From a virus, in IMG/VR virus record IMGVR_UViG_3300048592_000344, positions 1 to 49,005 of that record: 49,005 nucleotides of DNA, one strand, 5' to 3'. The translations under genes and the position numbers were made by a program. The notes beneath the pieces were generated by a model. It was not told the DNA's origin. It saw only the letters and a program-made list of their open reading frames with translations, and did no database searches. Below, piece by piece: positions 2,139 through 40,064 of this stretch. Position 1 is the first letter of the stretch, and each line of letters starts with the position of its first letter.

Positions 2139-2173
2139 CGTATGGCTCTTACCATCGTGGTAAAGTATGGCTC
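2139..2173. promoter_or_regulatory. 35-nt operator-like element A
   Basis: Contains GTATGGCTC, then TTACCA-TCG-TGGTAA, then AGTATGGCTC. The inner 15 nt is a near-perfect palindrome. It belongs to a family with sites at 2260, 4176, 34269 and 40030 and forms the left arm of the 272-bp palindrome. Confidence 0.65.
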
Positions 2174-2259
2174 TAACTGAAGCGCCGTGGCTTGTTTTTT
2201 CTGAAAGGAGAAAAAAAAAAAAAAAAAAAACTCATAAAGAACAAAACGAAAACACAACT

Positions 2260-2294
2260 GGGCCATACGTTACCATCGTGGTAACAGCCATACG
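2260..2294. promoter_or_regulatory. 35-nt operator-like element B
   Basis: This is a mirror copy of element A: GGCCATACG, TTACCATCGTGGTAA, then CAGCCATACG. It has the same inner 15-nt palindrome and an inverted orientation relative to A about the A20 tract. Confidence 0.65.
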
Positions 2295-2352
2295 GAATGA
2301 CACACATGGGCAACTCCGCGAAAAGTGCCAATCTCGGGCATGTCAGGGACAC

Positions 2353-2593
2353 TTCGTAGGCGGTGGTGCGAGGTGGTGGTGGTAGGCGCAAGCCGGAGGT
2401 GGTGGCGCTATGGATTTGCCCCGGTGCGGGTGGCGCGGGATCGGGTGGCTATGGGGTGGCGCGGAATGGGGCGCTAGCGCCCGTGGAAGGCACTTTGTGG
2501 CGCGATGGTGGGGTGGTGGGTGGGTGGATACCGGGCATGGTGTTGCGCGCGTGTGGCGCGTTCCTATGGGCTTGGTATGGTCCGGCGCTGGGC
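2353..2593. other. Gene-free GGTGG/GGCGC-rich tract
   Basis: No credible gene is seen. The plus strand is dense in GGTGG, GGGTGGCG and TGGCGCG words, which makes the strand strongly G-over-C skewed. It lies between the 272-bp palindrome and the terminator of the upstream gene. Together with 1945-2080, which holds a tandem GGCGGTGGCAAC repeat near 2030-2055, it completes a roughly 700-bp non-coding block. Confidence 0.6.
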
Positions 2594-2628
2594 AAAAGAA
2601 AACCGCCCCAAGGTTTCCCAAGGGGCGG
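2594..2628 (-). terminator. Rho-independent terminator
   Basis: On the minus strand CCGCCCC (2628-2622) and GGGGCGG (2609-2603) form a GC-rich stem with an internal loop, followed by TTTTCTTTT (2602-2594). It lies just past the stop of 2651-2866 and should end leftward transcription coming from about 3985, separating it from the 1850 operon. Confidence 0.8.
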
Positions 2629-2650
2629 CGACGTTGTTAAGGGGGTGGCG

Positions 2651-2866
2651 CTAGAAACGGACGAGACCTTTCTCCACACGATACGCCCGATTGTGCGCTT
2701 CCCTTTCCGCTTTTACCGCCTCGAAGACAGCATAACGGTCCTTGCGGCGCATAGCGGACTCGGCAATTTTGCCATAACATTCACCAAGCTCGTGCAACTT
2801 TGCCGCAAGGGTTTCGCGGTCTTGTGCGTCGGTTGACGCGGGATAGGCGATGGTTGCTTTTTCCAT
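2651..2866 (-). CDS. Hypothetical early protein, 71 aa
   Basis: Small, highly charged, probably all-helical protein (MEKATIAYPA start; basic C-terminus ending RVEKGLVRF). No family is recognised. The ATG at 2866 has the shared GGAGTCC leader. It follows the 224-aa gene after a strong hairpin and is itself followed by a terminator, so it is the last gene of the first leftward unit. Confidence 0.75.
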   Translation of the reverse strand: MEKATIAYPASTDAQDRETLAAKLHELGECYGKIAESAMRRKDRYAVFEAVKAEREAHNRAYRVEKGLVRF

Positions 2867-2920
2867 GTTCGGACTCCTAACAGACATTGCCGCACCATTG
2901 CCGCAATGCGTGAAGGGAGT

Positions 2921-2950
2921 CCGCCCGGACAGCGTAAACCGTCCGGGCGG
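2921..2950 (-). promoter_or_regulatory. Intercistronic hairpin
   Basis: Perfect 10-bp inverted repeat CCGCCCGGAC / GTCCGGGCGG with a 10-nt loop, placed between the 224-aa and 71-aa genes. There is no T run on the leftward strand. It is probably an RNA processing or stability element, or a partial terminator that lowers expression of the distal gene. Confidence 0.6.
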
Positions 2951-2957
2951 GTGGCGA

Positions 2958-3632
2958 TTAGATGTCGCCCAGCATTTCGTCAAGATCGCCCGCAAGGGTG
3001 GCGCTTGCCGCTTGGCGGCGGGCCAATTCTTCCCGCGCTTCCGCCATGATGTCGCGCGCGCCATTGCCTGCCTGATTGTCAATCCAAGCAATGACCGCTT
3101 TGTCATCCCAAGTCGGCCGCTTGTCGTTCTCCTTGAAGAACGCCGCCACCTTGGGCGAAAGGGCCACGAAGGCAGCTGCCGTTGGCCTCGTCCCCGGCAT
3201 TGCCGCCGAAAGCGCCTTGGCGAAAATCGCCTTGAGAGCATCCTTGGCAATATCCAGCGCCAAGCTTTGCTCCTCGGTCCACTTGGTGCTGGTGCCGTCA
3301 CCGGCAACGCGAACCTGCCATTGCCCGGCAAGCAAGGCGTCAACCGCCTTTTGCATCGCAGCCAGCGTAGCATCCTTCACCGCCTTGTCATTGGCGGCGG
3401 CAAAGTCGCGCAGCTGGTCCCGGCTTGGCTTTGGCGTGCCTTCGGGCTTCTTGTCCGCCCAAAGCTGCCCGACAACGCCGCTTGCGGCGTCAGCCACCTT
3501 TTGCTTGATCCCATGCGCAATGACCTGCCGCAGCACGTCATGTGGGATTGCCGCCACGTCCACCGGCACGATGACATCCCGCGACTCCACGTTGATTGTG
3601 GTCGCGGGGACTGAGAGATTGAAGCTTTCCAT
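2958..3632 (-). CDS. Hypothetical early protein, 224 aa
   Basis: The largest gene of the repeat. It starts MESFNLSVPATTINVESRDV, with a short beta region, then a long Ala/Lys-rich helical body, a WTEEQSLALDIAKDALKAI segment and an acidic C-terminus (DLDEMLGDI). The start at 3632 has GGAGTCC seven bases upstream; an in-frame ATG four codons earlier would put that site inside the gene. Its abundance-type composition and position next to the earliest promoter suggest an early host-interaction or DNA-binding role, but nothing proves it. Confidence 0.75.
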   Translation of the reverse strand: MESFNLSVPATTINVESRDVIVPVDVAAIPHDVLRQVIAHGIKQKVADAASGVVGQLWADKKPEGTPKPSRDQLRDFAAANDKAVKDATLAAMQKAVDALLAGQWQVRVAGDGTSTKWTEEQSLALDIAKDALKAIFAKALSAAMPGTRPTAAAFVALSPKVAAFFKENDKRPTWDDKAVIAWIDNQAGNGARDIMAEAREELARRQAASATLAGDLDEMLGDI

Positions 3633-3667
3633 TTTGGACTCCATTAAGCGGCGGGATTGCCGCGTGA

Positions 3668-3688
3668 TCCGCCCCCCACAAGGGCGGA
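3668..3688 (-). promoter_or_regulatory. Intercistronic hairpin
   Basis: TCCGCCC (3668-3674) pairs with GGGCGGA (3682-3688), with a 7-nt loop, between the 71-aa gene at 3697-3912 and the 224-aa gene. No T run follows, so this resembles the hairpin at 2921-2950. Likely a processing or attenuation element. Confidence 0.45.
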
Positions 3689-3696
3689 CTGCGCGA

Positions 3697-3912
3697 TTAT
3701 CCAAACTGCACCGTATATTCGACCCAATCCGTTGAGGGGCTGGAGGCTAGGGCAAGGAACAACGCGCCTAGTTGGTCGAGGTCGCAAACAAGCAGGAGTG
3801 TTCCCGGTTGGTTAAGGCTGACTGGAATTGGCGTAAGGTCCCTGATCCACTCGGCAAGGCGGGCAACGGCGGCGTCATTGCCGAAGTCTTGGACGGTTAC
3901 GAAAGCTTTCAT
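3697..3912 (-). CDS. Hypothetical first leftward early protein, 71 aa
   Basis: Begins MKAFVTVQDFGNDAAVARLA, with an alternating beta-alpha pattern (TLLLVCDLDQLGALFLAL). No family is recognised. The GGAGTCC leader precedes the ATG at 3912. It is the first gene transcribed leftward from the divergent control region and lies outside the duplicated part present at the right end of this window. Confidence 0.75.
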   Translation of the reverse strand: MKAFVTVQDFGNDAAVARLAEWIRDLTPIPVSLNQPGTLLLVCDLDQLGALFLALASSPSTDWVEYTVQFG

Positions 3913-3956
3913 TTGTTGGACTCCTTCGGGGTTGGTTTGGTTGGTCGGTGCTTTGC

Positions 3957-3985
3957 AAGGGTGGGAATTGCGGCAGCCGTGTCAA
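3957..3985 (-). promoter_or_regulatory. Putative leftward early promoter
   Basis: On the minus strand a perfect TTGACA (3985-3980) is followed by a 17-nt spacer and ACCCTT (3962-3957), a poor -10 box. The -35 match and position 70 bp before the first leftward gene support it. The weak -10 could mean an activator is needed or that the true box is shifted. Confidence 0.4.
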
Positions 3986-4024
3986 GCCCCCAAGGCCACA
4001 TTGTGATTAGATGAAACACGATTT

Positions 4025-4054
4025 TTGAGTTTTTGCCCGAAGTTGTTGCATTAT
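4025..4054 (+). promoter_or_regulatory. Candidate rightward promoter in the divergent region
   Basis: TTGAGT (4025-4030), an 18-nt spacer and CATTAT (4049-4054) resemble a sigma70 promoter facing the terminase/structural arm. The rest of 4055-4281 holds a GGGCCTC / GAGGCCC hairpin (4124-4148), element C and the terminase ribosome site, but no gene. Confidence 0.35.
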
Positions 4055-4175
4055 GGCAACTGGCTAGGAAACGCCCCCACCCGTCTCGAAGCACGCATCT
4101 GGGGGGTGGGTTCGACGGTGCCGGGGCCTCGCGCGCCGGGGGAGGCCCTTCGCAAATCTCTATCTATTCTGGAAT

Positions 4176-4210
4176 AGTATGGCTCTTACCATGGTGGAAT
4201 GAGCCATACT
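4176..4210. promoter_or_regulatory. 35-nt operator-like element C
   Basis: The most symmetric member of the family. Perfect 10-bp outer arms AGTATGGCTC and GAGCCATACT flank TTACCATGGTGGAA. It sits 72 bp before the small terminase start, where it could control the whole rightward arm. Confidence 0.7.
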
Positions 4211-4281
4211 TGCCCCCGCGCTTGCCCCCGGCTTTCGCCCGTGTTAAGCTGGGGCACGAGCCAGCACGAGGACTCCGCCCG

Positions 4282-4839
4282 ATGTCACTAGGACTTCGCA
4301 CGACTGGAAGGGCCAGCAAGGCTGTCACCGCAGAACTCGAAAGGGAACTGGGGTTGGACGACGTGGCGACGCTGCTGGAGGAGAAGGGGGTAGCAGCGCC
4401 CCAGATCGTTCACATCCGCGAGCGGCACCATGCGCTGGCGCGGCTGATAGCGGAGGGGAAGAAACCCGGCGAGGCTGCCATTCTCTGCCGCTACACGCAA
4501 AGTCGGATGTCGGTGCTGCTGGGCGATCCAGCTTTTCAAGAGCTTGTCGCCCACTACCGCTCGGTCGTGAACGTGGAGTTTGTGGACTTTCAAAAGAAGT
4601 TGGCCGACCTAGCCCTGGACGCCGCAAGCATTTTGCAGGATCGGATGGAAGAGAAGCCGGAGGACCTTTCTGACGCGCTGCTGCTGCAGGTGGTGCAAGT
4701 TGGCGCGGATAGAACCGGGCACGGCCCCTCGCAAAAAACCGAGGTCAATGTTAAAATTGGGCTGGCAGGCAGGATTGCTAGCGCCCACGAGCGGGCACTT
4801 CGGGCTCGCGATATCACTCCAAAGGAGCTTGAAGGATGA
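4282..4839 (+). CDS. terS: Terminase small subunit (putative)
   Basis: 185 aa. An N-terminal helical part is followed by a helix-turn-helix-like segment at about residues 57-80 (GEAAILCRYTQSRMSVLLGD), then a long helical oligomerisation region and a basic tail. This is the usual design of small terminases, which bind the packaging site and hand DNA to the large subunit. The ATG at 4282 has GAGGA upstream; the longer open frame extends into the control region and is unlikely. It is the first gene of the rightward arm, and its stop overlaps the next start (ATGA). The role is inferred from the HTH and position, because the large subunit lies 2.9 kb downstream rather than adjacent. Confidence 0.7.
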   Translation: MSLGLRTTGRASKAVTAELERELGLDDVATLLEEKGVAAPQIVHIRERHHALARLIAEGKKPGEAAILCRYTQSRMSVLLGDPAFQELVAHYRSVVNVEFVDFQKKLADLALDAASILQDRMEEKPEDLSDALLLQVVQVGADRTGHGPSQKTEVNVKIGLAGRIASAHERALRARDITPKELEG

Positions 4840-7578: not shown

Positions 7579-7580
7579 CC

Positions 7581-11297: not shown

Positions 11298-11303
11298 TAG
11301 GGA

Positions 11304-11333: not shown

Positions 11334-11355
11334 TGAAGGAGGAAAGGGATTAAGT

Positions 11356-18230: not shown

Positions 18231-21155
18231 ATGGCTCTTGGAACCGTTCGGGCAAGTGGTGGGCTGCAGAACCAGCTTGTCAACGATCGCTCAAGCAGCA
18301 TCATGGCGGAAGCTACCTCCGGGTTGGGTGACTCGGTCAACAGGCTGGCACAAGCAGGGGTGGGCTTTCTTGACTCTCGCACGGATATCGAGGCGGTGTA
18401 TGACCGCCGGGCTATGGCAAGCAAGGCACTGGAGTTGGACACGCAATTCCTGCAGTATCAGCAGGATCGAGCAAAAGAATTCACAGAGTATTCTCGCGGT
18501 CGTTCGGCTAACCCAGGCGGAATGACGAAAGAATATGATGCTATGCTGGCGGAGCAGGAGAAGGCGTTTCTCGAAACCGTGCCTGAGCGGCATCGGGAGG
18601 AAATGGCGGCTAAGCTGGCGAGAGACAGGGCGACCAGAGTTGGCTCGGCTTTTGCGGCAGAGCTCGAGCTGCTTGACACCGCCGACACCAACACCCTGAA
18701 CAAGGGGTTGAACACCCTTGGCTCTGGTCTGAAAGGTGGAGGGGTTTCACTTGAGGACGCCGAAGCTCAGTGGATTGAAATGGTGGAAAAGTCGGCGCTG
18801 CCGGAAATCACCAAACAAGAGTTTATTGAAAGCGGGAAGGCCACGCTGCAAGGACTGGACTTTGGCACGGCGGTGGAGCAAACCGCTCTTGGCTACGGCA
18901 GTGCTCGACAAGGAGATGACGGAGGCGACGTTGTAGCAGCGGGGCTTCTGCCCCAAGACAGGGGGGTGCTGAATGCCATCGCGGAAAACGAAGCTCCTGC
19001 TTATAACGTATGGAACGGAGGTTCCACCTTTGCGGGGTATGAAGATCACCCTGCGGCGACGAGCAAGGCGCCAGGCGAAAGCACAGCTGCTGGCCGTTAT
19101 CAGTTTATTCTTGGGACGTGGCGGGCGGCCTCCGAAAGCTATGAACGAACCTATGGAGTGAAGGTGCCGGACTTCTCCCCGGAGTGGCAGGATAGGGTTG
19201 CGCTGCACTGGGCGGAGACGCAATTCAACCGGCACTACAGCGGGGCTACGTTTAAGGATATTTTGGCAAGTGGTGATCCGCAACAGCTCCTGATCATCCG
19301 GGACGTGCTGGGCAAGCCTCGTTCGGACAACCCTAATGACCTTGAGTGGAAAGGTCTAGGGCATATGAGCGATGCTGAGTTCATCGAGATTATGACAGGG
19401 CAGAAAGGCTTTGCCGGAGGTGGGACTGGCCCGGCGCAAGGACCGAATGTCTGGACCGATCCTCGCTATGCCAATCTTTCCCTGGAGCAGAAGCAAAGCT
19501 TTGCAAATGCTGCGGCAGCTGCGGCTGAGCAGCAGAAGCAAACCATGGCGAATGAGATCAAACTGCAACGTGAAGCCATGCTCGACGGGGTGTATGAAGC
19601 TGGCTATCGCAACGACCAGAGCTTCGTCGAAAGCATGGAAAAAGCGGGGCAGTGGGACGCTGACGCTCAGGCTAGATTTAACTCTGGAAGAGAAGTCTTT
19701 CGTACCGCTGAAAGTGAAACGGCCAATGTCGGGGCGATGATTGCGGCGGGGACTCCTTTGGGCCAAGACCAACAGAAAGCCTTTGGTCGGTGGTTCGGTG
19801 CGGATAGCTTTGCTGGGATCGCAACGGGCGATGAGAAAGCCTACGCCAAGATGAAGTATGCGGTTAATCAGGCTCGGCTTTTCCCAGACGGATCGGTGGA
19901 TGCTTTCCGCGCGGCCATGGGGGTGCCTGAGACGCAGACGCAAGCACTTGCTTTTCTCGCGGCGGCCCATGCTGGCGACAGCACGTTGCTTCGCAGAAGC
20001 GGCTTTAGCCAGGAGGATGTGGCGCAGGTGCAGCTGTTTAAGCAGCTGGCGGAGCGGAGAGGAAGCATTGACACTGCGGTGGAAGACTTCCGCGCAGCTA
20101 CAGACGTGCAAGCTACCTCCGGCAAAACTCCAGAACAGTTGTCGAGCGAGGCTAGCAAGCTTTTCTCAACTAGTTTCCCAACTGTTGATGAGGTGGCAAA
20201 ACGGTTTGACGGCTGGTTTGTTTCCGAGCCGAACAGTAAGATCAACCCAAATACGGAAAGTCAGCTGATGCTGGACGCAAGCACCGCTTTCCAAGACGGC
20301 TACATGCGCTATGGCACTGAGGAAGCTGCTACCGCGTATATGGAAGCGTATCTGGATAAGATTTGGGGGACAAGTCAGACGGTGGTGCCACAGACGGCGT
20401 GGGGTCCTGGCGGCTTTGTTGCGGGAACGCAGCAGAACCCTGTGCTCATGCGCCACCCTCCGGAGAACCATTACGTTGGGGCGGATGGAGACCTTGGTTT
20501 CCTCTACTCCGCCATCAGCGAATACGCTGCCGCTGGCGGCGCCTCCCCCTACGGGGCAGTGCTGATCCCGGATGAGCAGACGGACCGTGAGGTCAGAGAA
20601 GGAAAGCTCCCGACTTACAAAGTGCTTGGCATGGGAGAGTTTGGCGAAGCCATTGTCCTGGAGGGAAGGTTCGGTGGACCTGAACTGCAATCTGGGCAAG
20701 ATGCTATGATGTCGGAAGAAGCACTGCGGAAGAACGCGGTGAGTAAGGTCTCAGCGAACGAACGGCAAGTGCTGGAGCTGGATGGAAAGATTGCCAAGGC
20801 CAAAGCTATGGGGCAAGCGGATGTTGTGAACGAACTGGAGTTGGAGAAGTCCCGCTTCGTTCAGCAACGAGATGCGGCGAAGTTGGCGGCGCAAGAGCTT
20901 GGCTACCTTACCGTGGTGCCGCAGGGCGAAGCGGATGAAACGGTGATTAATAACGCTGTGACCATGCTTGGAACGGCGATGCAGCAAGACCCTGCTATGT
21001 CGCAACGGGTAACGCAGTTGGCCAAGAAGCACAAGGGTATGTCGCCGGATGAGGCGAATAAGCTGGCGCTGGCTGAGGTCGTCGAAAAAGAAATGCGGAT
21101 CACGCCGGAAGATGCGCTGAAGGTGGTGGAACTTTACCTGGGAGCAAATGAATGA
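18231..21155 (+). CDS. Internal virion protein C (gp15-like) with embedded muralytic domain
   Basis: 974 aa ejection protein. Residues 1-235 are helical. Residues about 240-375 resemble the lambda R / GH104 transglycosylase fold: VLNAIAENEAP with probable catalytic E254, then FAGYEDHP, TAAGRYQFILGTW at 286-298 and a helical end. The remaining ~600 residues are helical with coiled-coil-like parts. It would cut peptidoglycan locally while the DNA channel forms. T7 carries its muralytic domain on gp16 instead. It overlaps the next gene by ATGA. Confidence 0.8.
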   Translation: MALGTVRASGGLQNQLVNDRSSSIMAEATSGLGDSVNRLAQAGVGFLDSRTDIEAVYDRRAMASKALELDTQFLQYQQDRAKEFTEYSRGRSANPGGMTKEYDAMLAEQEKAFLETVPERHREEMAAKLARDRATRVGSAFAAELELLDTADTNTLNKGLNTLGSGLKGGGVSLEDAEAQWIEMVEKSALPEITKQEFIESGKATLQGLDFGTAVEQTALGYGSARQGDDGGDVVAAGLLPQDRGVLNAIAENEAPAYNVWNGGSTFAGYEDHPAATSKAPGESTAAGRYQFILGTWRAASESYERTYGVKVPDFSPEWQDRVALHWAETQFNRHYSGATFKDILASGDPQQLLIIRDVLGKPRSDNPNDLEWKGLGHMSDAEFIEIMTGQKGFAGGGTGPAQGPNVWTDPRYANLSLEQKQSFANAAAAAAEQQKQTMANEIKLQREAMLDGVYEAGYRNDQSFVESMEKAGQWDADAQARFNSGREVFRTAESETANVGAMIAAGTPLGQDQQKAFGRWFGADSFAGIATGDEKAYAKMKYAVNQARLFPDGSVDAFRAAMGVPETQTQALAFLAAAHAGDSTLLRRSGFSQEDVAQVQLFKQLAERRGSIDTAVEDFRAATDVQATSGKTPEQLSSEASKLFSTSFPTVDEVAKRFDGWFVSEPNSKINPNTESQLMLDASTAFQDGYMRYGTEEAATAYMEAYLDKIWGTSQTVVPQTAWGPGGFVAGTQQNPVLMRHPPENHYVGADGDLGFLYSAISEYAAAGGASPYGAVLIPDEQTDREVREGKLPTYKVLGMGEFGEAIVLEGRFGGPELQSGQDAMMSEEALRKNAVSKVSANERQVLELDGKIAKAKAMGQADVVNELELEKSRFVQQRDAAKLAAQELGYLTVVPQGEADETVINNAVTMLGTAMQQDPAMSQRVTQLAKKHKGMSPDEANKLALAEVVEKEMRITPEDALKVVELYLGANE

Positions 21156-24100
21156 ACGACATTTTCAAAAGGCTGACGCTTCCGGGGGCTGACGCAGCTG
21201 AGCTCAAGCCCAGCTTTGTCGAGACCATCGGCTCCGCTTTCAATCTCGAGAACGATGTTGCCAACCTCTACGCGCATCTGAACAAGCCGGTGTTTCAGCC
21301 CGATCCTACCTTCAACTTCATGTCGGAATTTAAGAAGCGTCAGCTGCCGGTGGATTGGATGGTGCCACTGGCTGGCTCGCAATCGGTGCAGGAATTTGAC
21401 ACCACGCTGTCCCGGATGCAGAAGGAGTATCAAGATCGGGCGGTGCTTGCGGCGAGCGGGTGGAAGGGGACTGCAGCGGCGTTTGCGGCGGGAATGCTGT
21501 CTCCGACTGTGTTCATTCCTATTGCCGGGCAGGCGAGAGGAGCGAAAGGGATGTCGCAAATTCTGGCGCTTGCGGCTGCTGGGGCAACGGCGCAGAATGG
21601 CGCGCTTTTCCTGAACCAGGAGATAAGGTCGGAAGCGGAGCTCTATGCCGGAATTGCGCTAGACACAGCTCTGCTTGGACTGATGGGGGCGGCATATCTC
21701 CGGATGACGAGACCAGCTCGGGCGCAGGTGCAGGCAGCTATCACGCTTAACCAGAAAAAAGTGGACGTGCCGGTTGGTGAACCTGATCTTCCAATTTTGC
21801 ACGAGCAGTCAGTTCGGGTGGAAGCACCAACTGCTGCTGAAGTAAAAATGGAAGCAAGAGCTGCTGGTATTCGTGATCCTGAGCAAGTCGCGGAAATGAT
21901 GGATGAAGCGGAGCCGATGACATACGTTCCGCTGAAGGATCGGGCACTTACGATTGGTCAGCCCAAGCGTGTCAAAGCCAAGGACATCGAGACGCAGATG
22001 GCCTATGGCGGAAGCTACCTCGAGGCGCCTGTGGCCGAAGATGTTATGGCTCGATTTGTCAAAGTTCCAGTGGGGTCTGGAGGCAAGTGGTTTGTCGGGG
22101 GCGAGTATGCTATCACCCTTCACCGGGCAGACGGAACTGAGATCACACTTCCGCTTGGGGCTGTTGACACTCACATGAAGGCAGGCAGAACTCCCTATTT
22201 CAAGGAAGCGGAACTGAAAGAAGCCCTCGCCAACGGTGAACTTGACGACCAGCTTTACACTATGCTTGAAGCGGCGGAAGACCCTGGTATGGCTCGTTCC
22301 ACGATGGAAACGCCCATATCCAAACCTGCCGACAATGGCAAAGCTGCAGACACCCAAGCGATCGGCGCCGCACCCAGCCGGACGCGGAACACTCTCGGCC
22401 CGAAGCCAGCGCCGAATAGGGTTAGCCAGGCCCTGATGAATATGCTGGGGAAAATGTCACCCAGCTATCGCATGTTCAGCCAGCGGCTATTTCCCTCGCT
22501 TCGCAACGGTATTGCCAAGTTAGATAACTCCGGCATCCAGCAAGCGGGGCTGGAACAGATGCAACCGTCGGCAGACGGCGGCACGGTGATTGAGCGTATC
22601 CGAGCCTATGACGCCTATGTCGTCTCGTTCGCCAAGAAGCTTGACCAGCACTACTACGACTATGTGTATGACGGAGCCAAAGGCGCTGACATGAACATGG
22701 CGGCGTTCACACAAATCCGTTCTCAGTTTGGGAAGATACCGCCAGGCAAACTTAACTGGACGGAGTATAAAGCTGCAGTGTTTGAGCAGCTGAACACAGG
22801 GGAGATTAAACCCGAGCTTGCTCCGGCTGTGCAGGAGTTCAAGAAGTTTTTCGAGTTCTACAACAATCGGCACAAGCAATATTTGGCGGAGATGGAAGCG
22901 AAGGGAATTGAGGTCGAACCGCTGTATAAGGAACTGCTGGACGATGACCTTGGACCGGACGTGAAGAACTACGCCCACCATATCTTTGACCAGCAGAAGC
23001 TGATGGAGAACTTCTCTCAGTTCCTCGAGGACTTCGGCAAGGCTTATGAAAAGTCGCTGCAAGAAAGCTTTGACAAGGGAAGGAAGACTTATCTCAAGCG
23101 GAAGGAGAAGCTGGAGTTTGAGCAGCTGATCAGTCAGCTTGACGACGCCGAGATCAGCACCCGGCTTGCGGACACGGAAGCGGAGATTGAGTTTCTCGAT
23201 GAAACGCCGGAGCTCCAGGGCTTCAACACCCAACGCCTTGCTCTGAATAAGCAGGCGAAGGAGGAGGGTTGGCCCAAGGAACAGCTGAAAGCAGCGCAAA
23301 AAGACTTGGCCGATAGCATCACTGCCGACACTAGACTTCTGTTGGATGAGCGGAAGCGGTTGCTTGGCGTGGCCAGGGCGTTGAAGAAGTTTGGCGGGGA
23401 CGCCACCGAACGGACAACTAAGCTGCGCGCGGAGCTTGACAGGACCAACGAACTTATCGCGGAGATGTTCCGGACGGAGCTGCCCAAGATCGCAGCGGTT
23501 GACCTGAATATTGAGAAGATACAGCTGAAGGGGGATAAGGCCCTCGCCCCGCTCACTCGCCAGATGACAAAGGTCGTCAAGGAGATGGAAAAGCGGACGG
23601 CGGCTATGCAGAAGTTGATCGCCAGCAAGCGGAAGAACCCAGTGTCTGGGGCAAGGTTAGATGAGCAAATGGCTCGATCGCTTGAGCGCCATCAACGCTT
23701 GCTTGATCGGATTAAAGCGGTGGAGGGACAACAGGTTGCGCTGGACCAGCGGCTGCGTGAACTGCAGTTGCTTCGGGAGGATGTAATCTCTGACGCTACG
23801 CTGCTGGTTCGGTCGAGGGCGGTTCGTGCTGAGGCAACGGAAGAAAAGCTGGAAGCAGCTGCTGCGAAGATTATTCCGCCGGAAGAAAAGCTGCGGATGC
23901 GGGATCAGATTGGAAGAGAGCTGGAAGACCTTGAGGCGGACTTCCGAAACACCTGGAGTTTGCGCGGAGAAAATTCAGGTGACCCTATTGCCACGACCAC
24001 ACCCAACTTCAGGGAGAAGGCGTTGGAAATGGCGACGATGCTGCATCAAAAACTGACCAACACAGAGGTGGAACTGTCTCCCGCCTACCATGCTCTGCGA

Positions 24101-25837
24101 CAAGATGCTCGCGGCGCCGAACTCATGCGCGTGATGAACATCCCATTCGGCATGAAAAAGAAGTGGCTGATTAATGATGTGGAGCTGGTGACCAGGGCCT
24201 ATGACCGGACAATGGCACCGGACCTGGAGATTTGGCGAGCCTTCGACGGCAGCGTTAACGGTAAGTCCTTGCTGGGTGAGATGGCGCAAGAAGCCACGGC
24301 GCTGATGACTCGGATCGGTTCGGCCAAGTATGTCAAGCTGCCGAAAGGATGGGTGGACAAATCCGCTGCTTTTGCAGATAAGGTGAAGAAGCGTCTGGAT
24401 GACTTCGGAGCTATGGACGAACTGCATCTGGAGGAGAAAAACTTCTCCGACACGATGGAGGAGGGGTTTGTGGAACTGACCCCGGAGCTTCGGACGCAGC
24501 TTGGCAACTATGTATCCAACGCTACCAAGGCTATGACTCGGGACTTTGACGTGGCGATCCAGCGGCTTCGGATGACGCGGGGTGTGCCAAGGGATGGAAC
24601 TGATCCGTGGTGGAGAGCAGGGCGGTTTATCAAAAACGTCAACGTGGTGACGATGATGGGGGGAGTTGTCACCTCGTCTATCTCGGACGTTGCGAGGCCG
24701 GTTTGGCAGCACGGCGTTGGCCGGGTGTTTCGTCACGGCTGGGCTCCCTTCATTAACAAGCTTGACCCGAAGGCGAAGGAGTTCCGGCTGAAGTCAAAGG
24801 AGATCAATAGGCAGATTGGGCTTAACCTCGAGCCGGTGCTGCATAGCCGGGCGCAGGCGGTGTTTGACCTGGCGGAAGATAGCATTGGTCGGACGAGGCT
24901 GGAACGCGGCGCTAACGTGCTGGCGCAGAAGATGGGGCTTGTGGCATTGTATGACTTCTGGACAGCTGGAATGAAAACCATTGCTGGGAACGTGACTCAT
25001 GCTACGATGGCAGCGTATGTTCCGGCGGTGGCGAAAGCGTGGAGGGAGGGAGCGGAGTTCTCAGGCGACCTCTTGCAAATGCGGACGTATCTGCGGAACC
25101 TTGGTTTGTCCGACCTGGACATTCATAAGATCGCCCTGCAGATGGAGCGGCCAGACGGCGTGGAAGTTTTCTCCAACGGTGGGGTGCTGCCGAACGTTCA
25201 TCTGTGGGATGATCCCGCTGCCTATCAGGCATACCAGGCCGCCGTGCTTGGGGAGGTAAACAAACTTATCGTAACACCAGGGCTTGAGCGTCCAAACTGG
25301 ACCGACGAAAACATGGGCTTCTCCATGCTAGCCCAGTTTAAAAGCTTCACCTTCGCCAGCAACTCTCGCATGGCAATGTCGGCGCTCCAGGGCAACGACC
25401 CATACCTCATGCAAGGCATCGCCTTTTCCCTTGCCTTGGGGGCGCTTTCCTACTATACTTACGCAATGACAGTTGGAGGTAAAACTCTCGAAACCGCAAA
25501 TCAGATGGAACCTGACAAGTGGATTTGGGAGGCGGTCAAGCGGAGTGGGATACTCGGGGCTGCCAGCATCGCAGCGGATGTTGGGGCTGAAATGCCGTTG
25601 ATTACCGGGGATGATACTCCGGTTATTTTCCGGAGGCCTGGTGGGATGCTTGGAACGTTGCTCGGCCCGACCTATTCCCAGGCGGAAAGAATGGCGGGTG
25701 TGCTCACCAACCTCGACGCGGAAGATCAATCGCGCAACATGAGAGCGATCCGGCAGATGATCGTGCCGTATCAAAACCATTTCATCTTCCGGCAGCTCTT
25801 CGACCGTGTGGGTGACGCAATGTATGGAGACAACTGA
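21152..25837 (+). CDS. Internal virion protein D (gp16-like)
   Basis: 1561 aa, the largest gene. It has hydrophobic segments near residues 108-195 (AAAFAAGMLSPTVFIPIAG, LDTALLGLMGAAYL), a very long charged helical and coiled-coil region at about 620-930, and a mixed C-terminal half. Order (gp14, gp15, gp16), size and helical content fit the T7 gp16 ejection protein that extends the tail across the envelope. I see no lytic transglycosylase motif at its N-terminus, consistent with that activity sitting on the gp15-like protein. Confidence 0.8.
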   Translation: MNDIFKRLTLPGADAAELKPSFVETIGSAFNLENDVANLYAHLNKPVFQPDPTFNFMSEFKKRQLPVDWMVPLAGSQSVQEFDTTLSRMQKEYQDRAVLAASGWKGTAAAFAAGMLSPTVFIPIAGQARGAKGMSQILALAAAGATAQNGALFLNQEIRSEAELYAGIALDTALLGLMGAAYLRMTRPARAQVQAAITLNQKKVDVPVGEPDLPILHEQSVRVEAPTAAEVKMEARAAGIRDPEQVAEMMDEAEPMTYVPLKDRALTIGQPKRVKAKDIETQMAYGGSYLEAPVAEDVMARFVKVPVGSGGKWFVGGEYAITLHRADGTEITLPLGAVDTHMKAGRTPYFKEAELKEALANGELDDQLYTMLEAAEDPGMARSTMETPISKPADNGKAADTQAIGAAPSRTRNTLGPKPAPNRVSQALMNMLGKMSPSYRMFSQRLFPSLRNGIAKLDNSGIQQAGLEQMQPSADGGTVIERIRAYDAYVVSFAKKLDQHYYDYVYDGAKGADMNMAAFTQIRSQFGKIPPGKLNWTEYKAAVFEQLNTGEIKPELAPAVQEFKKFFEFYNNRHKQYLAEMEAKGIEVEPLYKELLDDDLGPDVKNYAHHIFDQQKLMENFSQFLEDFGKAYEKSLQESFDKGRKTYLKRKEKLEFEQLISQLDDAEISTRLADTEAEIEFLDETPELQGFNTQRLALNKQAKEEGWPKEQLKAAQKDLADSITADTRLLLDERKRLLGVARALKKFGGDATERTTKLRAELDRTNELIAEMFRTELPKIAAVDLNIEKIQLKGDKALAPLTRQMTKVVKEMEKRTAAMQKLIASKRKNPVSGARLDEQMARSLERHQRLLDRIKAVEGQQVALDQRLRELQLLREDVISDATLLVRSRAVRAEATEEKLEAAAAKIIPPEEKLRMRDQIGRELEDLEADFRNTWSLRGENSGDPIATTTPNFREKALEMATMLHQKLTNTEVELSPAYHALRQDARGAELMRVMNIPFGMKKKWLINDVELVTRAYDRTMAPDLEIWRAFDGSVNGKSLLGEMAQEATALMTRIGSAKYVKLPKGWVDKSAAFADKVKKRLDDFGAMDELHLEEKNFSDTMEEGFVELTPELRTQLGNYVSNATKAMTRDFDVAIQRLRMTRGVPRDGTDPWWRAGRFIKNVNVVTMMGGVVTSSISDVARPVWQHGVGRVFRHGWAPFINKLDPKAKEFRLKSKEINRQIGLNLEPVLHSRAQAVFDLAEDSIGRTRLERGANVLAQKMGLVALYDFWTAGMKTIAGNVTHATMAAYVPAVAKAWREGAEFSGDLLQMRTYLRNLGLSDLDIHKIALQMERPDGVEVFSNGGVLPNVHLWDDPAAYQAYQAAVLGEVNKLIVTPGLERPNWTDENMGFSMLAQFKSFTFASNSRMAMSALQGNDPYLMQGIAFSLALGALSYYTYAMTVGGKTLETANQMEPDKWIWEAVKRSGILGAASIAADVGAEMPLITGDDTPVIFRRPGGMLGTLLGPTYSQAERMAGVLTNLDAEDQSRNMRAIRQMIVPYQNHFIFRQLFDRVGDAMYGDN

Positions 25838-30945: not shown

Positions 30946-30947
30946 GC

Positions 30948-33234: not shown

Positions 33235-33235
33235 T

Positions 33236-34252: not shown

Positions 34253-34268
34253 GCTTTGCCCCAGGTTT

Positions 34269-34303
34269 GATATGGTTTATTCCATGATGGAAACAGCCAT
34301 ATC
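34269..34303. promoter_or_regulatory. 35-nt operator-like element D
   Basis: Outer arms GATATGG / CCATATC flank the core ATTCCATGATGGAA. It fills most of the short gap between the ParB-methyltransferase stop and the exonuclease start, so it lies where a promoter or operator for the polymerase operon would be. Confidence 0.65.
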
Positions 34304-35639
34304 ATTCCCTCCGTTTAACCGCCTCCCTCAACACCAGTGCGTTTGCGTAGATTTCGGGAAGCGCCTCGATGCCGAGGACGAATTGCGGGGATGACTCTTC
34401 CGCCGCAAGGATGCTATTGCCACTGCCCATGGTGGGATCGAGCATTACAGTGGACTCGTCCACGAACATTCGGAAGAAGTGCTGGAGCATTGGGCGAGGT
34501 TTTTCGCTCGCGTGGATTTCCTTCGTCTTGGGGTGCGCGAATAGGTTAGACACAGCTTGGACGATCTTTCGATCGCCTCGTGAGCCAAAAAGGCAGACTT
34601 CGTAAACCTGCCGAGGTCCTCGTTGAGGGTCTGGGAGCACTCCGGAGTTGTCGCTGCGGTGCCAAATAAGTGGAACGGCAGCGACTTTCCACCCCATGTC
34701 CTCAAGGGCAAGGCGAGTTTGATGAACAATCTCGTGACGCGCGGATAACCAAAACATGAGGTGCGCGGACTCAGCCACTCGGTCGGCCATACAGAGTTTA
34801 AGGGAACGGAGGCACTCAAGGTAGAGCTCGGGGGTGTCGGCATACTTTCCAAGGAGGCCGGTGGCCCCGCCATTATGCTTGTCGTAGTTGATCCCGTAGG
34901 GAAAGTCGCAGTGGATAAAGTTGAACTTGGGGCCTGACCAGGGAGTGGTAGCCCACTTGCGAAAGTCGTCGTTGAGATAGGGGATGATCTTCTGCGGCTG
35001 CTCGACCAGCGGAAGCGTGGGCTCGTTTGAGCCGGGTTTGCGGGATGTAGGCTCGATCGAGGTGGGTTTGTTAAACACCGCCTCAAAAGCCTTATCGAGG
35101 ATCGTGGCTTCGTTGGCCTCGGCCCGCTGTTCCTTGCGGAGACAGATGTTGTGGGCGGTGACAAGGTTGTCCGCGCCGACTACGAGGGGTTCCTCCTTTG
35201 CCAGGTAATCGGCGACAAGGAGGTAGCGGCTGATGGAAGTGTTGGAAACGGAAAGGAGCTCTGCGGTGTCGGAAGCGGTCCAGCTTTCTTCGGTGCCCTG
35301 CTTCAACGCATGGAGGCGGGCGACGGCGGTGACCTCCTCTTTCCAGCTAAGCGCCTTTCGCTTGACGTTTTCCTCCAGTTCAATTGCCTCGAGCTCCTCT
35401 TGCGGGAGGTCGGTGGTAAACTGGACGGTGATATGGGTTAGGCCGAGGTGCTGGTGCGCGCGGAGGCGGCGTTCGCCCGCAACAAGAACACCGTCTGGCG
35501 TTAACACGATCGGGTGGATCAGTCCGAGGCTGCGGATGGAGGAAGCGAGCTCCTCGATGCCGGACAGTTCTTTCCGCTGCCGATCGGGGGAGACGGTGAT
35601 GGAGGAGATTGGATAGGAGCGGAAAGAACCGGAGAGCAT
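34302..35639 (-). CDS. ParB-like CTP-binding/HTH domain fused to DNA methyltransferase
   Basis: 445 aa from the ATG at 35639 with GAGGAA upstream; longer frames have no ribosome site. The N-terminal ~110 residues show a full ParB/Srx fold: LASSIRSLGLIHPIVL, the CTP-binding box GERRLRA and EENVKRKALSWKEEV. An HTH follows (SDTAELLSVSNTSISRYL). The C-terminal half is an amino-methyltransferase of permuted order: DFPYG (catalytic motif IV, with Phe instead of the first Pro), HASEKP, and motif I DPTMGSGNS binding S-adenosylmethionine. It probably methylates adenine or cytosine at sites chosen by the ParB/HTH part, protecting DNA or regulating transcription. Confidence 0.85.
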   Translation of the reverse strand: MLSGSFRSYPISSITVSPDRQRKELSGIEELASSIRSLGLIHPIVLTPDGVLVAGERRLRAHQHLGLTHITVQFTTDLPQEELEAIELEENVKRKALSWKEEVTAVARLHALKQGTEESWTASDTAELLSVSNTSISRYLLVADYLAKEEPLVVGADNLVTAHNICLRKEQRAEANEATILDKAFEAVFNKPTSIEPTSRKPGSNEPTLPLVEQPQKIIPYLNDDFRKWATTPWSGPKFNFIHCDFPYGINYDKHNGGATGLLGKYADTPELYLECLRSLKLCMADRVAESAHLMFWLSARHEIVHQTRLALEDMGWKVAAVPLIWHRSDNSGVLPDPQRGPRQVYEVCLFGSRGDRKIVQAVSNLFAHPKTKEIHASEKPRPMLQHFFRMFVDESTVMLDPTMGSGNSILAAEESSPQFVLGIEALPEIYANALVLREAVKRRE

Positions 35640-35646
35640 GGTTTCC

Positions 35647-35946
35647 TCAAACATCAAAAAGGGGGGTAAGCGAGCCTTCGAGGTCAGAGATTAACCCGCT
35701 GAGCTCGGAAAGGCTGATGGTGAGGGAGGAGATGTGTCCGTTCCCTTTGTAGTGGACGCGACCGCCATCTTCTACAAGCTCCGCTTTCGGTTGTGGACCG
35801 TAAAGCTGCTCTGCCTTGCGCTGGGAGCGGAGAAGTAAGGTGTGCAGACGGTCCTTACAGGCGTCCACAGTGTGCATGTATGCGGGGAAATTGCTTCCCT
35901 CTAAGTCAGCTTCAACAGCTGCGATGTTTGCGAAAGCCGGGCTCAT
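35647..35946 (-). CDS. Hypothetical protein, 99 aa
   Basis: Helical N-terminal half (VDACKDRLHTLLLRSQRKAEQ) and a beta/helix C-terminal half with a short acidic end. No family is recognised. It lies directly before the ParB-methyltransferase gene, separated by 7 bp, so it is probably cotranscribed. Confidence 0.7.
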   Translation of the reverse strand: MSPAFANIAAVEADLEGSNFPAYMHTVDACKDRLHTLLLRSQRKAEQLYGPQPKAELVEDGGRVHYKGNGHISSLTISLSELSGLISDLEGSLTPLFDV

Positions 35947-36009
35947 TTTCTTTCCTCATGCGGTAAGGGTTAGGGCGGGAGATTATTCCCCCGCCCAGGT
36001 CTTGTTGGC

Positions 36010-36480: not shown

Positions 36481-36510
36481 AGCTGATCTCCTTGATGTTG
36501 CTGCTGATGG

Positions 36511-37516: not shown

Positions 37517-37518
37517 GG

Positions 37519-38469
37519 TTATCTCCGTTTGATTGGGTCCCAGCGGTCACACTTTTTGAAGTTGCCGTGCAACAAGTTTTCCCTAATGCCGGGCACAGCG
37601 GAACAAATGCGGCGGAACTCGCACCCGCCGTAGTTACCACAGGCCGTGCGGTTCATGGGGTAGTAGCCGGACTCGTGGCATTGCTTGGCCAGCCCGATGT
37701 AGTGGAGGGCTTCGACACGGAACTCTTCCAGCTGCTTCTCGCTACGGGTGATGGGCTGGCGACCGAAAGCGGTGAAGCCGACAGCGACATAGGCGGCGTC
37801 AACTACCACGCCCTTAACTGGCATGTTGAAGATGATCTGGCCAGCCCAGGTATAGCCGGTCATCTGGTAGTCGGGGGAGTAGCCCTCGAAAAAGCGAGGG
37901 GTGATTTGGGAACCAGTAGTCTTTTGGTCCTGGACGTAGATGTCGTTCCCGTCACCGTAGGTTACAAGCCGGTCGATGTGACCGCAGTAGACATACTCGT
38001 CGGAGAGGTCGATGGAGAAGGAATACTCTACCGCTGCGCGACCGTCGGAGAGGATGACGGTCTGCATAAGATCGTCTTTGTAATTTTCCAGATACCAGAC
38101 GATGGAGCGGATTAGGGTGTCGCGGGTCTTGCTGGCATGGAGCCAGTCTTGCGGCGCACCGCTGCCGGGGATGGGGTCTCCGTTTTCGGAACGTTCGTGA
38201 TCCCAGGTGTTGAGCATAGCTTCCAGCACGACCTTGCGGAGAGCGTCGTCGTGCGAAATGCCAGCGGCACGGAACTTGTGGAAGTGCTCGAGGGCACTGG
38301 CGTAGTGCCCGCCAAAGATGAGATGAACGGAGCGGAGCTCGCTGGTCCAGCCCTGAAGGTTGGAATAGTAATACTTGCGAGGGCAAGTTGCGAAGGCGGT
38401 GAGGCTAGTGCTATCCCAAGCGTATTGAGCGCCACTTGCATTAAAGGAAAGAAGCTTTTCTTGTGTCAT
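37519..38469 (-). CDS. PD-(D/E)XK nuclease with Fe-S cluster motif (Cas4/RecB-like)
   Basis: 316 aa. Catalytic core E148 (AAVEYSFSID), D166 (CGHIDRLV), D181-x-K183 (VQDQKTTG) and a following QMTGYTWA helix. Four cysteines, C29 (ATCPRKYY) and C277/C283/C289 (ACGNYGGCEFRRIC), form the staple typical of AddB/Cas4 4Fe-4S nucleases. It likely processes DNA ends for recombination with the Sak4-like protein. Confidence 0.85.
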   Translation of the reverse strand: MTQEKLLSFNASGAQYAWDSTSLTAFATCPRKYYYSNLQGWTSELRSVHLIFGGHYASALEHFHKFRAAGISHDDALRKVVLEAMLNTWDHERSENGDPIPGSGAPQDWLHASKTRDTLIRSIVWYLENYKDDLMQTVILSDGRAAVEYSFSIDLSDEYVYCGHIDRLVTYGDGNDIYVQDQKTTGSQITPRFFEGYSPDYQMTGYTWAGQIIFNMPVKGVVVDAAYVAVGFTAFGRQPITRSEKQLEEFRVEALHYIGLAKQCHESGYYPMNRTACGNYGGCEFRRICSAVPGIRENLLHGNFKKCDRWDPIKRR

Positions 38470-38540
38470 AGTCCTTGCTCCTTGGCTCTGCGCAAACGAT
38501 CTGCCGCTTGCTCCCGTGATGAAAGAATTTTAACTCCCAT
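38466..38540 (-). CDS. Micro-ORF, 24 aa
   Basis: Starts MGVKILSSREQAADRLRRAK and ends in EQGL. It exactly bridges two genes: the ATG lies 3 bp after the stop of 38544-38780, and the stop TGA overlaps the nuclease ATG. Either a microprotein or a coupling peptide. Confidence 0.45.
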   Translation of the reverse strand: MGVKILSSREQAADRLRRAKEQGL

Positions 38541-38543
38541 GGC

Positions 38544-38780
38544 TCAAAGGTCCTTGAACAGGTCGTCAAGCGACGTGCCGTCGAGGATTTTGGCCCGAGC
38601 CTCACGGTCCTTCTGCGCCCCGGATTTGCGGGAGGCAGGGGTGCCGATTTTCTTGTCATCGGCCAGGACAAAGTGACTGCGTGACTTACGCAAGTCGGCG
38701 ATGATCGCGTCAAGGTCTTGCTCGGAAAGCAATAGAGGGTCCCGAGCCATAAGCTCGGCGATCGGTGTCTCTTCAGGCAT
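38544..38780 (-). CDS. Hypothetical protein, 78 aa
   Basis: Charged helical protein (MPEETPIAELMARDPLLLSE start) ending LFKDL, probably partly disordered. It has the GGAGTCC leader at its start (38780). No family is recognised. It lies ahead of the nuclease in the same operon. Confidence 0.7.
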   Translation of the reverse strand: MPEETPIAELMARDPLLLSEQDLDAIIADLRKSRSHFVLADDKKIGTPASRKSGAQKDREARAKILDGTSLDDLFKDL

Positions 38781-38792
38781 TTGTTTGGACTC

Positions 38793-38984
38793 CTAGAGGT
38801 CGATGTCGGGGGTGTCGAGATTGTTCTCGGGGACGGAACGAACTTTGTCAACGAACTTGCTGATGATCCGGCGGACCATCACAGAGGAGGGGTATTTGGG
38901 GAAGAGCTCGTCAAGCGCCTCCATGTCCCCCTTGCGGAGGTTGAGGGTATGCTTTTGCAGCTCTTCAACCTTCGGTCTGGCCAT
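38793..38984 (-). CDS. Ribbon-helix-helix-like small DNA-binding protein
   Basis: 63 aa from the ATG at 38984. KHTLNLRKGDMEALDELF followed by SSVMVRRIISKFVDKV reads as one strand and two helices of an Arc/MetJ-like RHH domain; the tail is acidic. RHH dimers bind palindromic operators, so it is a candidate regulator of the 35-nt elements. Assignment is by pattern only. Confidence 0.55.
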   Translation of the reverse strand: MARPKVEELQKHTLNLRKGDMEALDELFPKYPSSVMVRRIISKFVDKVRSVPENNLDTPDIDL

Positions 38985-39198
38985 TTGCTTTCGTGTCCTT
39001 CTTGATGATCCAGAGTCGGGTTTCGCTGTCCGTAGGTGGCTGGACAAAGGTTAGGTTGGTCAGGCCAAGCTTCTTGCGTTCGGCGTAGAGTTGGTTGCGA
39101 AGAAGCTTGGGGTTGTTCGTGATAACAGAAACACCGACCTCGGCCTCGTTAGCGAGGAAGAGGAGGTGGGTTAGGTCGGGCTTGGGGAGCATGTTCAT
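38965..39198 (-). CDS. Hypothetical protein, 77 aa
   Basis: Begins MNMLPKPDLTHLLFLANEAE with a beta-alpha-beta pattern (VGVSVITNNP, LTFVQPPTD, RLWIIKKD) and a hydrophilic tail. The ATG at 39198 is preceded by GGAGCC. It overlaps the RHH-like gene by 20 nt. Function is unknown. Confidence 0.65.
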   Translation of the reverse strand: MNMLPKPDLTHLLFLANEAEVGVSVITNNPKLLRNQLYAERKKLGLTNLTFVQPPTDSETRLWIIKKDTKANGQTEG

Positions 39199-39216
39199 GT
39201 TGGCTCCAGCGTTTGT

Positions 39217-39318
39217 CGGATAGGCAGCAAGCACGGGAGGAGTCCAATCCACGCGCGCGGCACCAGTGGTATGGGGGTCATCCTGGGAGGGAGGGATACC
39301 GCCGGGGCTGCCTATCCG
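39217..39318. repeat. Perfect 12-bp inverted repeat in a gene-free spacer
   Basis: CGGATAGGCAGC (39217-39228) and GCTGCCTATCCG (39307-39318) are exact complements, 78 nt apart, between the 77-aa gene and the terminator of the 179-aa gene. The enclosed part has further short complementary words (GGTAT / ATACC). Possible structured leader RNA; a 28-codon frame inside (39195-39281) lacks a ribosome site. Confidence 0.55.
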
Positions 39319-39331
39319 AGAAAGGCTGGAA

Positions 39332-39347
39332 GGGGGCCGAAGCCCCC
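39332..39347 (-). terminator. Hairpin terminator after the 179-aa gene
   Basis: On the minus strand GGGGGC-TTCG-GCCCCC, a very stable 6-bp stem with a UUCG loop, starts 12 bp past the stop at 39360 and is followed by a T/C-rich stretch. Likely a terminator, perhaps leaky. Confidence 0.6.
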
Positions 39348-39359
39348 AACCAAACTTCG

Positions 39360-39899
39360 TTAGTGAGCCGGTTCGGGCGAAGCCTTGGCCAGGTCGCCCA
39401 GGTCCAGGCCGTCGAGGGCGTCGGTAGCGGAAGCTTCGCGGGCCTTGACCCGGCGCTTGGCCTCCTTGAGAACGTCCTCGCGTTCGGCCATCTCCGCGAT
39501 CTTGGCGTCGTAGGCTTCCTCGCCGATCTTCTCCTTGATCGCCTTGACGGTGAGCTTCTTGGAAGCGGCCCAATCCGCGAACATGCCGCGAGCGATGCGG
39601 AGAGCCTCGACCTCGACGGGATCGGTGGACTTGCGCCCGCCGCCGACAGAAGCGAGGGTGAAGACGTAGGCGGCGTCATACTCAGCGACAGCAGCGGCGA
39701 TGGTATCGACAGTCGGTTCGCCCTCTTTTGCAGTGCCCTCGACGGCGGCTTTCACTTTCGAGGCCATGTTGTTCCGAACGTTCTCGGCACGGACCTGGTT
39801 CAGCGCCTTGGCCTCGGCCTCGGTGATGACATGGCCAGCAAGGTAGGGTTGAAGGACCGGGAACATCTGCCCGGCGATGGTGATCTCTTTCGTGGTCAT
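39360..39899 (-). CDS. Hypothetical early protein, 179 aa
   Basis: Start at 39899 (MTTKEITIAGQMFPVLQPYL) has GAGGAG eight bases upstream; the longer frame runs into the promoter. The N-terminal part is helical (HVITEAEAKALNQVRAENV), then SVGGGRKSTDPVEVEALRIA and a long charged helix. With its own promoter, strong ribosome site and terminator it looks like an abundantly made monocistronic product, perhaps DNA-binding. No family is recognised. Confidence 0.75.
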   Translation of the reverse strand: MTTKEITIAGQMFPVLQPYLAGHVITEAEAKALNQVRAENVRNNMASKVKAAVEGTAKEGEPTVDTIAAAVAEYDAAYVFTLASVGGGRKSTDPVEVEALRIARGMFADWAASKKLTVKAIKEKIGEEAYDAKIAEMAEREDVLKEAKRRVKAREASATDALDGLDLGDLAKASPEPAH

Positions 39900-39974
39900 G
39901 GTAAGCTCCTCGTGATGTTGCGCGGGATTGCGCGGGGGATAGCGGCGGTCGGTGGCCAATGGGGCCATGCGACC

Positions 39975-40003
39975 TTTTTAGACTACTGCGGGGGGAAAGT
40001 CAA
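39975..40003 (-). promoter_or_regulatory. Leftward sigma70-type promoter
   Basis: TTGACT (40003-39998), a 17-nt spacer and TAAAAA (39980-39975) on the minus strand, about 75 bp before the 179-aa gene. The 48-nt block 39989-40036 repeats 1930-1977 with five mismatches, so the two promoters are related. Confidence 0.7.
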
Positions 40004-40029
40004 GAAGTGTTTGCGGGCTATGTCAGTTG

Positions 40030-40064
40030 GATATGGGCGTTTTCACGGTGGTAAGAGCCGGCTC
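40030..40064. promoter_or_regulatory. 35-nt operator-like element E
   Basis: Starts GATATGGGCG, core TTTTCACGGTGGTAA, ends GAGCCGGCTC. It is the most diverged member. It lies 26 bp upstream of the -35 box at 40003-39998, an activator-like place. Confidence 0.55.

Follow-up and report, generated by a model that had tools for sequence, protein, structure and literature searches.

The viral record IMGVR_UViG_3300048592_000344 (49005 bp, positions 1-49005; in the following the window, which is the whole stretch of DNA analysed and is labelled W among the tabulated records) contains a dispersed family of six 35-bp sites with partial dyad symmetry. It also encodes a fusion of a ParB-N domain, a helix-turn-helix (HTH) region and an N6/N4 methyltransferase, here called the ParB-methyltransferase, which is the candidate reader of these sites. 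Five of the sites had been named in a first-pass annotation of this DNA, and all five lie where it had placed them; a repeat search added a sixth copy that had been overlooked (site 4). The sites are bipartite: a GRTATGG arm, 3 nt, a 15-bp core, 3 nt and a CCATAYC arm make up the total of 35 bp.

2139-2173, plus strand: site 1, core TTACCATCGTGGTAA between a forward left arm and a right outer arm that is flipped in place
2260-2294, plus strand: site 2, core TTACCATCGTGGTAA between a left outer arm that is flipped in place and a forward right arm
4176-4210, plus strand: site 3, symmetric, upstream of a small-terminase-like gene heading the rightward structural operon
22286-22320, plus strand: site 4 (new), within the gene of a 1561-aa internal virion protein, position conserved in relatives
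34269-34303, minus strand: site 5, symmetric, at the ParB-methyltransferase stop codon and directly ahead of the exonuclease/polymerase genes
40030-40064, minus strand: site 6, one good and one decayed outer arm, ahead of the leftward early operon, whose first gene is 39360-39968

A symmetrised 35-bp matrix was derived from all six sites and scores them at 35.5-45.9, while the best score across 20 Markov-1 sequences is 11.5. The scan for equal matches elsewhere in the record, which the first-pass annotation had proposed, found none, the next best stretch reaching 0.7. Mirror-matching positions number 28 of 35 in the sites at 4176 and 34269, 22 at 22286, 18 at 40030, 16 at 2260 and 12 at 2139. 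The last two are not full 35-bp palindromes because one outer arm of each is inverted in place, and at 40030 it is the right outer arm that has decayed. The following features of the window are referred to below:

1971-1977, plus strand: orphan outer arm GATATGG without a core, in the duplicated leftward promoter block 1930-1980
21152-25837, plus strand: internal virion protein gene (1561 aa), which holds site 4
34302-35657, minus strand: ParB-N / HTH / N6-N4 methyltransferase fusion, the candidate reader
38793-38987, minus strand: ribbon-helix-helix-like (RHH) 64-aa protein, RHH assigned by eye, a disfavoured alternative reader
39998-40003, minus strand: -35-like TTGACT, 26 bp beyond site 6, of the putative leftward early promoter
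47595-47629, plus strand: terminal-repeat copy of site 1
47716-47750, plus strand: terminal-repeat copy of site 2

The family had been described as intergenic, which is partly correct: site 4 lies within the large virion gene, and site 5 shares two bases with the 3' end of the ParB-methyltransferase gene. The small-terminase-like gene behind site 3 likely starts with the ATG at 4282, as judged by eye. Sites 1 and 2 are contained in the stretch 2081-2352, a 91-nt imperfect inverted repeat (74%) around a run of 20 A and a possible replication origin or control block. Their core-to-core distance is 121 bp, and similar pairs occur in two relatives, G001 (125 bp) and G003 (114 bp). Positions 1-3549 and 45457-49005 form a terminal repeat of 3549 bp with 10 mismatches, all within the first 18 bases; it is either a long direct terminal repeat or an assembly overlap. 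The leftward promoter block of 51 nt is duplicated at 1930-1980 and 39989-40039 with 88% identity, and this duplication is what links the 40030 site to the 1930-1977 block in the first-pass annotation. A Megablast search with positions 1-25000 of the window against named phages gave no match.

The site family is also found in related phages, where its conservation was to be checked. Viral contigs were searched with the ParB-methyltransferase protein, which gave 63 loci in a first scan; from a second scan the best 80 of 422 relatives were retained. The spacing count covers 114 virus records (1.74 Mb) that hold the gene. Here, we observe 81 exact copies of RTATGG-N21-CCATAY in 41 records, with at least two copies in 17 of them, versus 10 exact copies for the other 25 spacings from 10 to 35 combined. 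TATGG-N21-CCATA with at most one mismatch is present in 36 of 50 records drawn from the 63 loci, although the reversed-pattern control indicates that many one-mismatch matches in the more distant records are due to chance. An AGTT extension outside the arms was found in 18 of 162 half-sites (6 with shuffled flanks). Avoidance of TATGG is absent in nine site-bearing phages (observed/expected 0.94-1.49). A reading of the outer arms as -10 elements was dropped, because both arms point inward, toward one another. An initial scan at the DNA level gave 7 stretches with one match each and matrix scores of at most 20.6, and the inverted repeats of L016, L021 and L033 were too noisy to be informative. 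Separately, a single TTTTCATCAGTAAAT site with TATGG arms recurs in viral contigs of 5-321 kb (L101, L104, L108, L120, L134, L139), which look like an unrelated phage group.

Across the phages that share the TATGG design, the outer arm stays constant. The inner core of 15 bp is similar among the sites of one phage and changes from phage to phage: TTCCA/TTACCA in the window, TTACA in G001, TTCAC in G003 and G047, TTTCA in L008/L009, TTCG in G011 and TTTAYA in G060. A core is not unique to one phage, as TTCCA is also found in G013. In a leave-one-out test with ten phages, core matrices score a mean of 15.4 on sites of their own phage (n=49) versus -1.7 on those of other phages (n=441), and a few cross-phage pairs score high, e.g., the G061 matrix on G047 (12.6). 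When 14 genomes were scanned with their own core matrices and the arms ignored, 56 of 64 matches were the seeds themselves. Six of the eight others carry a TATGG or CCATA arm, among them flipped-arm sites in G001, G011, G013 and G047, and two lack any arm.

Constant arms alongside varying cores would also be expected if two proteins met at each site, the ParB-methyltransferase on the core and a constant phage or host protein on the TATGG arms. The arms can be inverted in place, and their distance to the core is then 2 nt rather than 3 (by eye), which suggests an independently docked module. On the other hand, the exact 21-bp spacing of the 81 copies argues for a single rigid complex, and more distant relatives change their arms too (TATGTA in G017, GGTGGG in G028; by eye). 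We regard an arrangement of two proteins as rather doubtful.

Within -60 to +400 bp of the ParB-methyltransferase stop, a site with one mismatch allowed is found in 17 of the 105 loci that have enough sequence past the stop. Eleven of these 17 begin at most one base from the end of the stop codon, and other spacings from 12 to 30 never give more than 4 loci. Inverted repeats this close to gene ends might be transcribed as hairpins, i.e., as terminators, processing sites or translational operators. RNA pairing was examined in transcript orientation for 17 such sites (16 of the 17 from relatives, the distant L259 being left out, plus that of the window). The 289 mirror pairs comprise 191 Watson-Crick, 39 A.C, 15 G.U and 44 other combinations; A.C exceeds G.U, the opposite of what an RNA helix would produce, though part of the A.C excess stems from the overlap with the TGA stop. 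Flipped arms abolish the outer pairing, and the total width of the site is fixed. We reject the hairpin reading, which is very improbable given the A.C/G.U counts and the flipped arms.

The places of the sites were tabulated for 14 records. For the g39360-type first early gene, 11 of them have a site that lies at most 150 bp upstream of the called start or just within it, and by the same measure eight have one for TerS; the TerS sites of W, G011 and G057 fall within the start of an open reading frame that is probably overcalled. The junction of the ParB-methyltransferase and exonuclease genes carries a site in six records, with a flipped-arm form in G011 and G013 besides. The internal virion protein gene holds one in eight, and a ninth is implied for G011, where the end site lies 619 bp past g18231, at the expected place of this gene. 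Other sites are found in the early region or elsewhere, and the single exact sites of G020 and G052 fall outside all four recurrent places. The virion-gene site is in the same frame in all eight phages, at an offset of 1134-1140 or 600-627, and is translated as M...I with a middle that varies, so conservation appears to act on the DNA. Beyond the early-operon sites, a -35-like hexamer begins at a distance of 16-30 bp in 11 of 11 cases (ten TTGAC/TTGCA, and TTTACA in G060). A TTGA/TTGC hexamer is located at most 70 bp from the TerS site in six of eight cases (at 2-54 bp), and none was found in the other two; the distance from site to hexamer is not fixed.

The first-pass annotation had suggested one regulator that coordinates all arms of the genome. 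The synteny in relatives supports a single dispersed family beside the main operons, whereas a pure promoter-operator reading is too narrow, since site 4 is intragenic and has kept this position in relatives. From their position, we infer that the sites regulate transcription. Short as they are, the sites might be thought to arise by chance or as copies of a mobile repeat. The gap between matrix scores of 35.5 and 0.7, the excess at spacing 21 and the conserved places refute this explanation, to which we assign a negligible probability; conserved places and phage-specific cores in relatives whose ParB-methyltransferases are 41-82% identical do not fit recent copying.

The ParB-methyltransferase has a Pfam ParB_N match of 37.9 bits (cut-off 26.3) and an N6_N4_Mtase domain, and Pfam reports no HTH match in it. 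Over its first 200 residues, the protein matches structures of Noc/ParB (7ng0, E 8.8e-21; profile positions 5-204). Among 41 sequences, G61, E62, R64, N97 and R100 are invariant, and the invariant residues are held in the motifs GERR, LEEN, CDFP and DPT.G. The AlphaFold2 (AF2) model has a mean pLDDT of 84.1, with an HTH-like helical region (helices 105-160) and a linker at 191-220 (pLDDT about 50). The C-terminal half has an N6/N4 methylase fold in place of the C-terminal dimerisation domain of ParB proteins. M1.HpyAVI and MboIIA are structural neighbours. Both enzymes act on asymmetric 5-bp sites, and such targets would suit TATGG/CCATA.

Of seven segments compared, the recognition helix (138-150) varies most, with a mean identity of 0.29, compared with 0.51-0.60 for the ParB_N and methylase segments. 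Distances between recognition helices and between cores correlate (partial Mantel r 0.35, p 0.005 for 15 phages; r 0.22, p 0.001 for 39 phages). Among 74 close pairs, the three with a helix identity of at least 0.92 share cores (similarity at least 0.92), and the other 71 reach at most 0.84.

The presence of gene and site family across phages was compared by a de novo palindrome scan that is independent of the motif, using long records of 32-56 kb, 36 with the ParB-methyltransferase gene and eight without. Families of at least four palindromes occur in 11 of the 36 and in none of the eight. Exact TATGG arms are present in 19 of the 36. Among the 17 gene-bearing records with a family of at least three, four differ in arms or design, namely those of G017 (TATGTA), G028 (GGTGGG), the Desulfofustis phage and MW202489. 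The scan found no family in Tiera and one tandem-repeat pair in AF; G012 has a possible palindrome pair, and smaller palindrome settings, applied to 22 records, gave no additional families of three. In G028 (L317-L319), a phage with the ParB-methyltransferase, palindromes like GGTGGG..GGTTCGA-n-TCGAACC..CCCACC extend from 6916 to 48620; nine are linked by script and eight are alike by eye, which is the same idea with other arms.

The complete records of the Desulfofustis phage and MW202489 hold the ParB-methyltransferase gene and have nine and five dispersed palindromes, respectively; RHH, g38544 and g39360 were not detected in either, and MW202489 shows a weak g36010 match. In the Desulfofustis phage (OP947158.1; L312, L398), the ParB-methyltransferase is 28% identical and the palindromes CTATGTCCCA-n-TGGGACATAG are centred at 256, 2258, 7695, 15481, 23066, 29977, 37120, 41288 and 42984. 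Kuura has homologues of exo, pol, Sak4, PD-DEXK, g38544, g39360, g36010 and TerS; neither the ParB-methyltransferase nor a convincing palindrome family was detected in it. On few phages, the comparison of the Desulfofustis phage and MW202489 with Kuura points to the ParB-methyltransferase.

Among 18 records chosen from a scan with the DNA pattern, four have the gene, G051 (six exact sites), G060 (five), G061 (four) and G052 (one). In the remaining 14, which carry between one and three exact matches each, the gene gave no match. Two of these, G057 with three sites on 28 kb and G062 with two on 21 kb, are fragments; in G053 (48.6 kb), the one site has a poorly palindromic core and may be chance. 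G053 (L343-L345), in which the ParB-methyltransferase was not detected, also has TGTGACA..TGTCACA palindromes centred at 41509, 44668 and 45355, which probably belong to another regulator.

The same records bear on another possible reader, the RHH-like protein at 38793-38987 or an unrecognised regulator, with the ParB-methyltransferase as a bystander. RHH proteins often bind inverted repeats. The RHH-like protein, for which Pfam and PHROG searches gave no match, is encoded in 19 of 20 scanned records, the miss being the fragment G057, and Kuura lacks a clear copy along with a convincing family. However, it was not detected in the two complete records with palindrome families of their own, and the strand that we take, by analogy with Arc, to face the DNA reads T-N-R in phages with TTCCA, TTACA, TTCAC and TTTCA cores alike. 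Both facts make the ParB-methyltransferase the better candidate. Co-variation of the RHH-like protein with the cores also speaks against it (best window partial r 0.258, whole protein -0.027), and we consider a different regulator unlikely.

Taken together, we consider it probable that the sites form a parS-like or KorB-operator-like network read by the ParB-methyltransferase. Several results weigh against this. Families of at least three palindromes are about as common without the gene (four of eight records) as with it (17 of 36), so that this threshold alone does not discriminate; by eye, the gene-less families are AT-rich runs in G070 and G073, a weak GC-rich one in Kuura and the three real TGTGACA palindromes of G053. 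The AT content is much higher in seven of the eight gene-less records. Thirteen of the 36 gene-bearing records have neither exact TATGG arms nor a family of at least three, and the complete record of Microcystis phage Mel-JY34 holds the gene with no palindrome family found. Kuura also lacks a detected UvrD and its RHH match is weak (E 0.004), so it does not single out the ParB-methyltransferase. The co-occurrence of gene and sites is partly built in, since most relatives were retrieved via this gene. With regard to the helix, segment 240-330 also correlates with core distances in the 39-phage set (partial p 0.018). In a sliding-window control the recognition-helix window ranks 8th of 421 (15 phages) and 14th of 421 (39 phages), and equal or higher scores are reached by windows that start at 231-242 and 329-337 (methylase half) as well as by stretches of g36010 and g39360. 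As the windows do not single out the helix, the Mantel result is suggestive. L006 and G003 reach a core similarity of 0.84 despite a helix identity of 0.23.

In the proposed mechanism, the ParB-type HTH of a dimer would read the inner palindrome as a phage-specific, parS/NBS-like core, and its nucleotide switch, with the motifs GERR and LEENxxR, may allow the protein to close around the genome as a clamp. A second element, at a constant distance from the core, would be the invariable outer arm, for which the methylase domains are possible readers. From sites ahead of the early and late operons, at the stop of its own gene and in the virion gene, the protein would control or organise the genome as a whole, in a KorB-like manner. 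More tentatively, it may be a ParB-guided methylase: the HTH dimer would address the phage-specific palindrome, and two flexibly linked methylase domains would act on the constant asymmetric TATGG/CCATA arms in either orientation. That the methylase domain reads the arms is likewise a tentative suggestion.

If true, a guided methylase would place or recognise methyl marks at a few control sites across the genome. This activity would be coupled to a clamp driven by nucleotide, and related phages would use mutually orthogonal addresses. Such a system would join clamp loading, operon-wide regulation and site-directed methylation, which are usually separate in phages. Fusions of a ParB fold and a methyltransferase are common in phages, and a concrete, testable target set is proposed here for dozens of them. 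The diverged pairs of core and recognition helix constitute a natural series for studying the evolution of DNA specificity.

A literature search of titles and abstract openings gave no report of these sites, most subscription journals and preprints being beyond its reach. Some parS/NBS sites are intragenic. Like the phage sites in the proposed reading, parS/NBS sites are HTH-read palindromes with several copies per genome, and most phage cores keep TT. Some cores, e.g., GTTTCATCGTGAAAA in L008, resemble the consensus TGTTTCAC-GTGAAACA as given in the available part of PMC7383237; its centre of 2 bp, compared with 3 nt in the phage core, is a further point against our reading. The phage sites also differ by their additional constant arms and by a core that varies from phage to phage. 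With regard to a ParA partner, AAA_31 (PF13614), the one ParA-type family searched, has no match in the record, and 14 of 14 control genomes match.

Cluster A mycobacteriophages (L5 type) carry stoperators, many dispersed repressor sites whose consensus varies with the preference of the repressor, according to the accessible text of PMC6550527. The dispersed arrangement and the consensus differing between phages are shared with our sites. However, stoperators are 13 bp long, are bound by a lysogeny repressor and, in the L5 type, are described as asymmetric (PMC9283540, in part), whereas the phage site is a long dyad; among genes expected of a temperate phage, neither Phage_integrase (PF00589) nor PF13614 has a match in the record. 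Fusions of a ParB fold with an N6_N4 methyltransferase, the same domain pairing as in our protein, are reported to be commoner in phages than in bacteria (Kaljevic et al. 2025, PMC12704722). The available sections of that paper give no DNA site and treat function as suggestions, e.g., anti-defence.

The places of the phage sites, ahead of operons, at the gene of the candidate reader and within a long operon, resemble KorB on plasmid RK2 more than a partition system, because neither an AAA_31 ATPase nor a Phage_integrase is found in the record. KorB is a ParB-family CTPase clamp that silences plasmid genes from OB operators near and far upstream of promoters; OB is 16 bp long and works with KorA (PMC11790492, as far as the accessible text goes). 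In the phage, too, sites lie upstream of several putative promoters on one replicon (hexamers at 11 of 11 early-operon and six of eight TerS sites). The phage site differs from OB by its length of 35 bp and its constant outer arms, and the candidate protein differs from KorB by carrying a predicted methylase.

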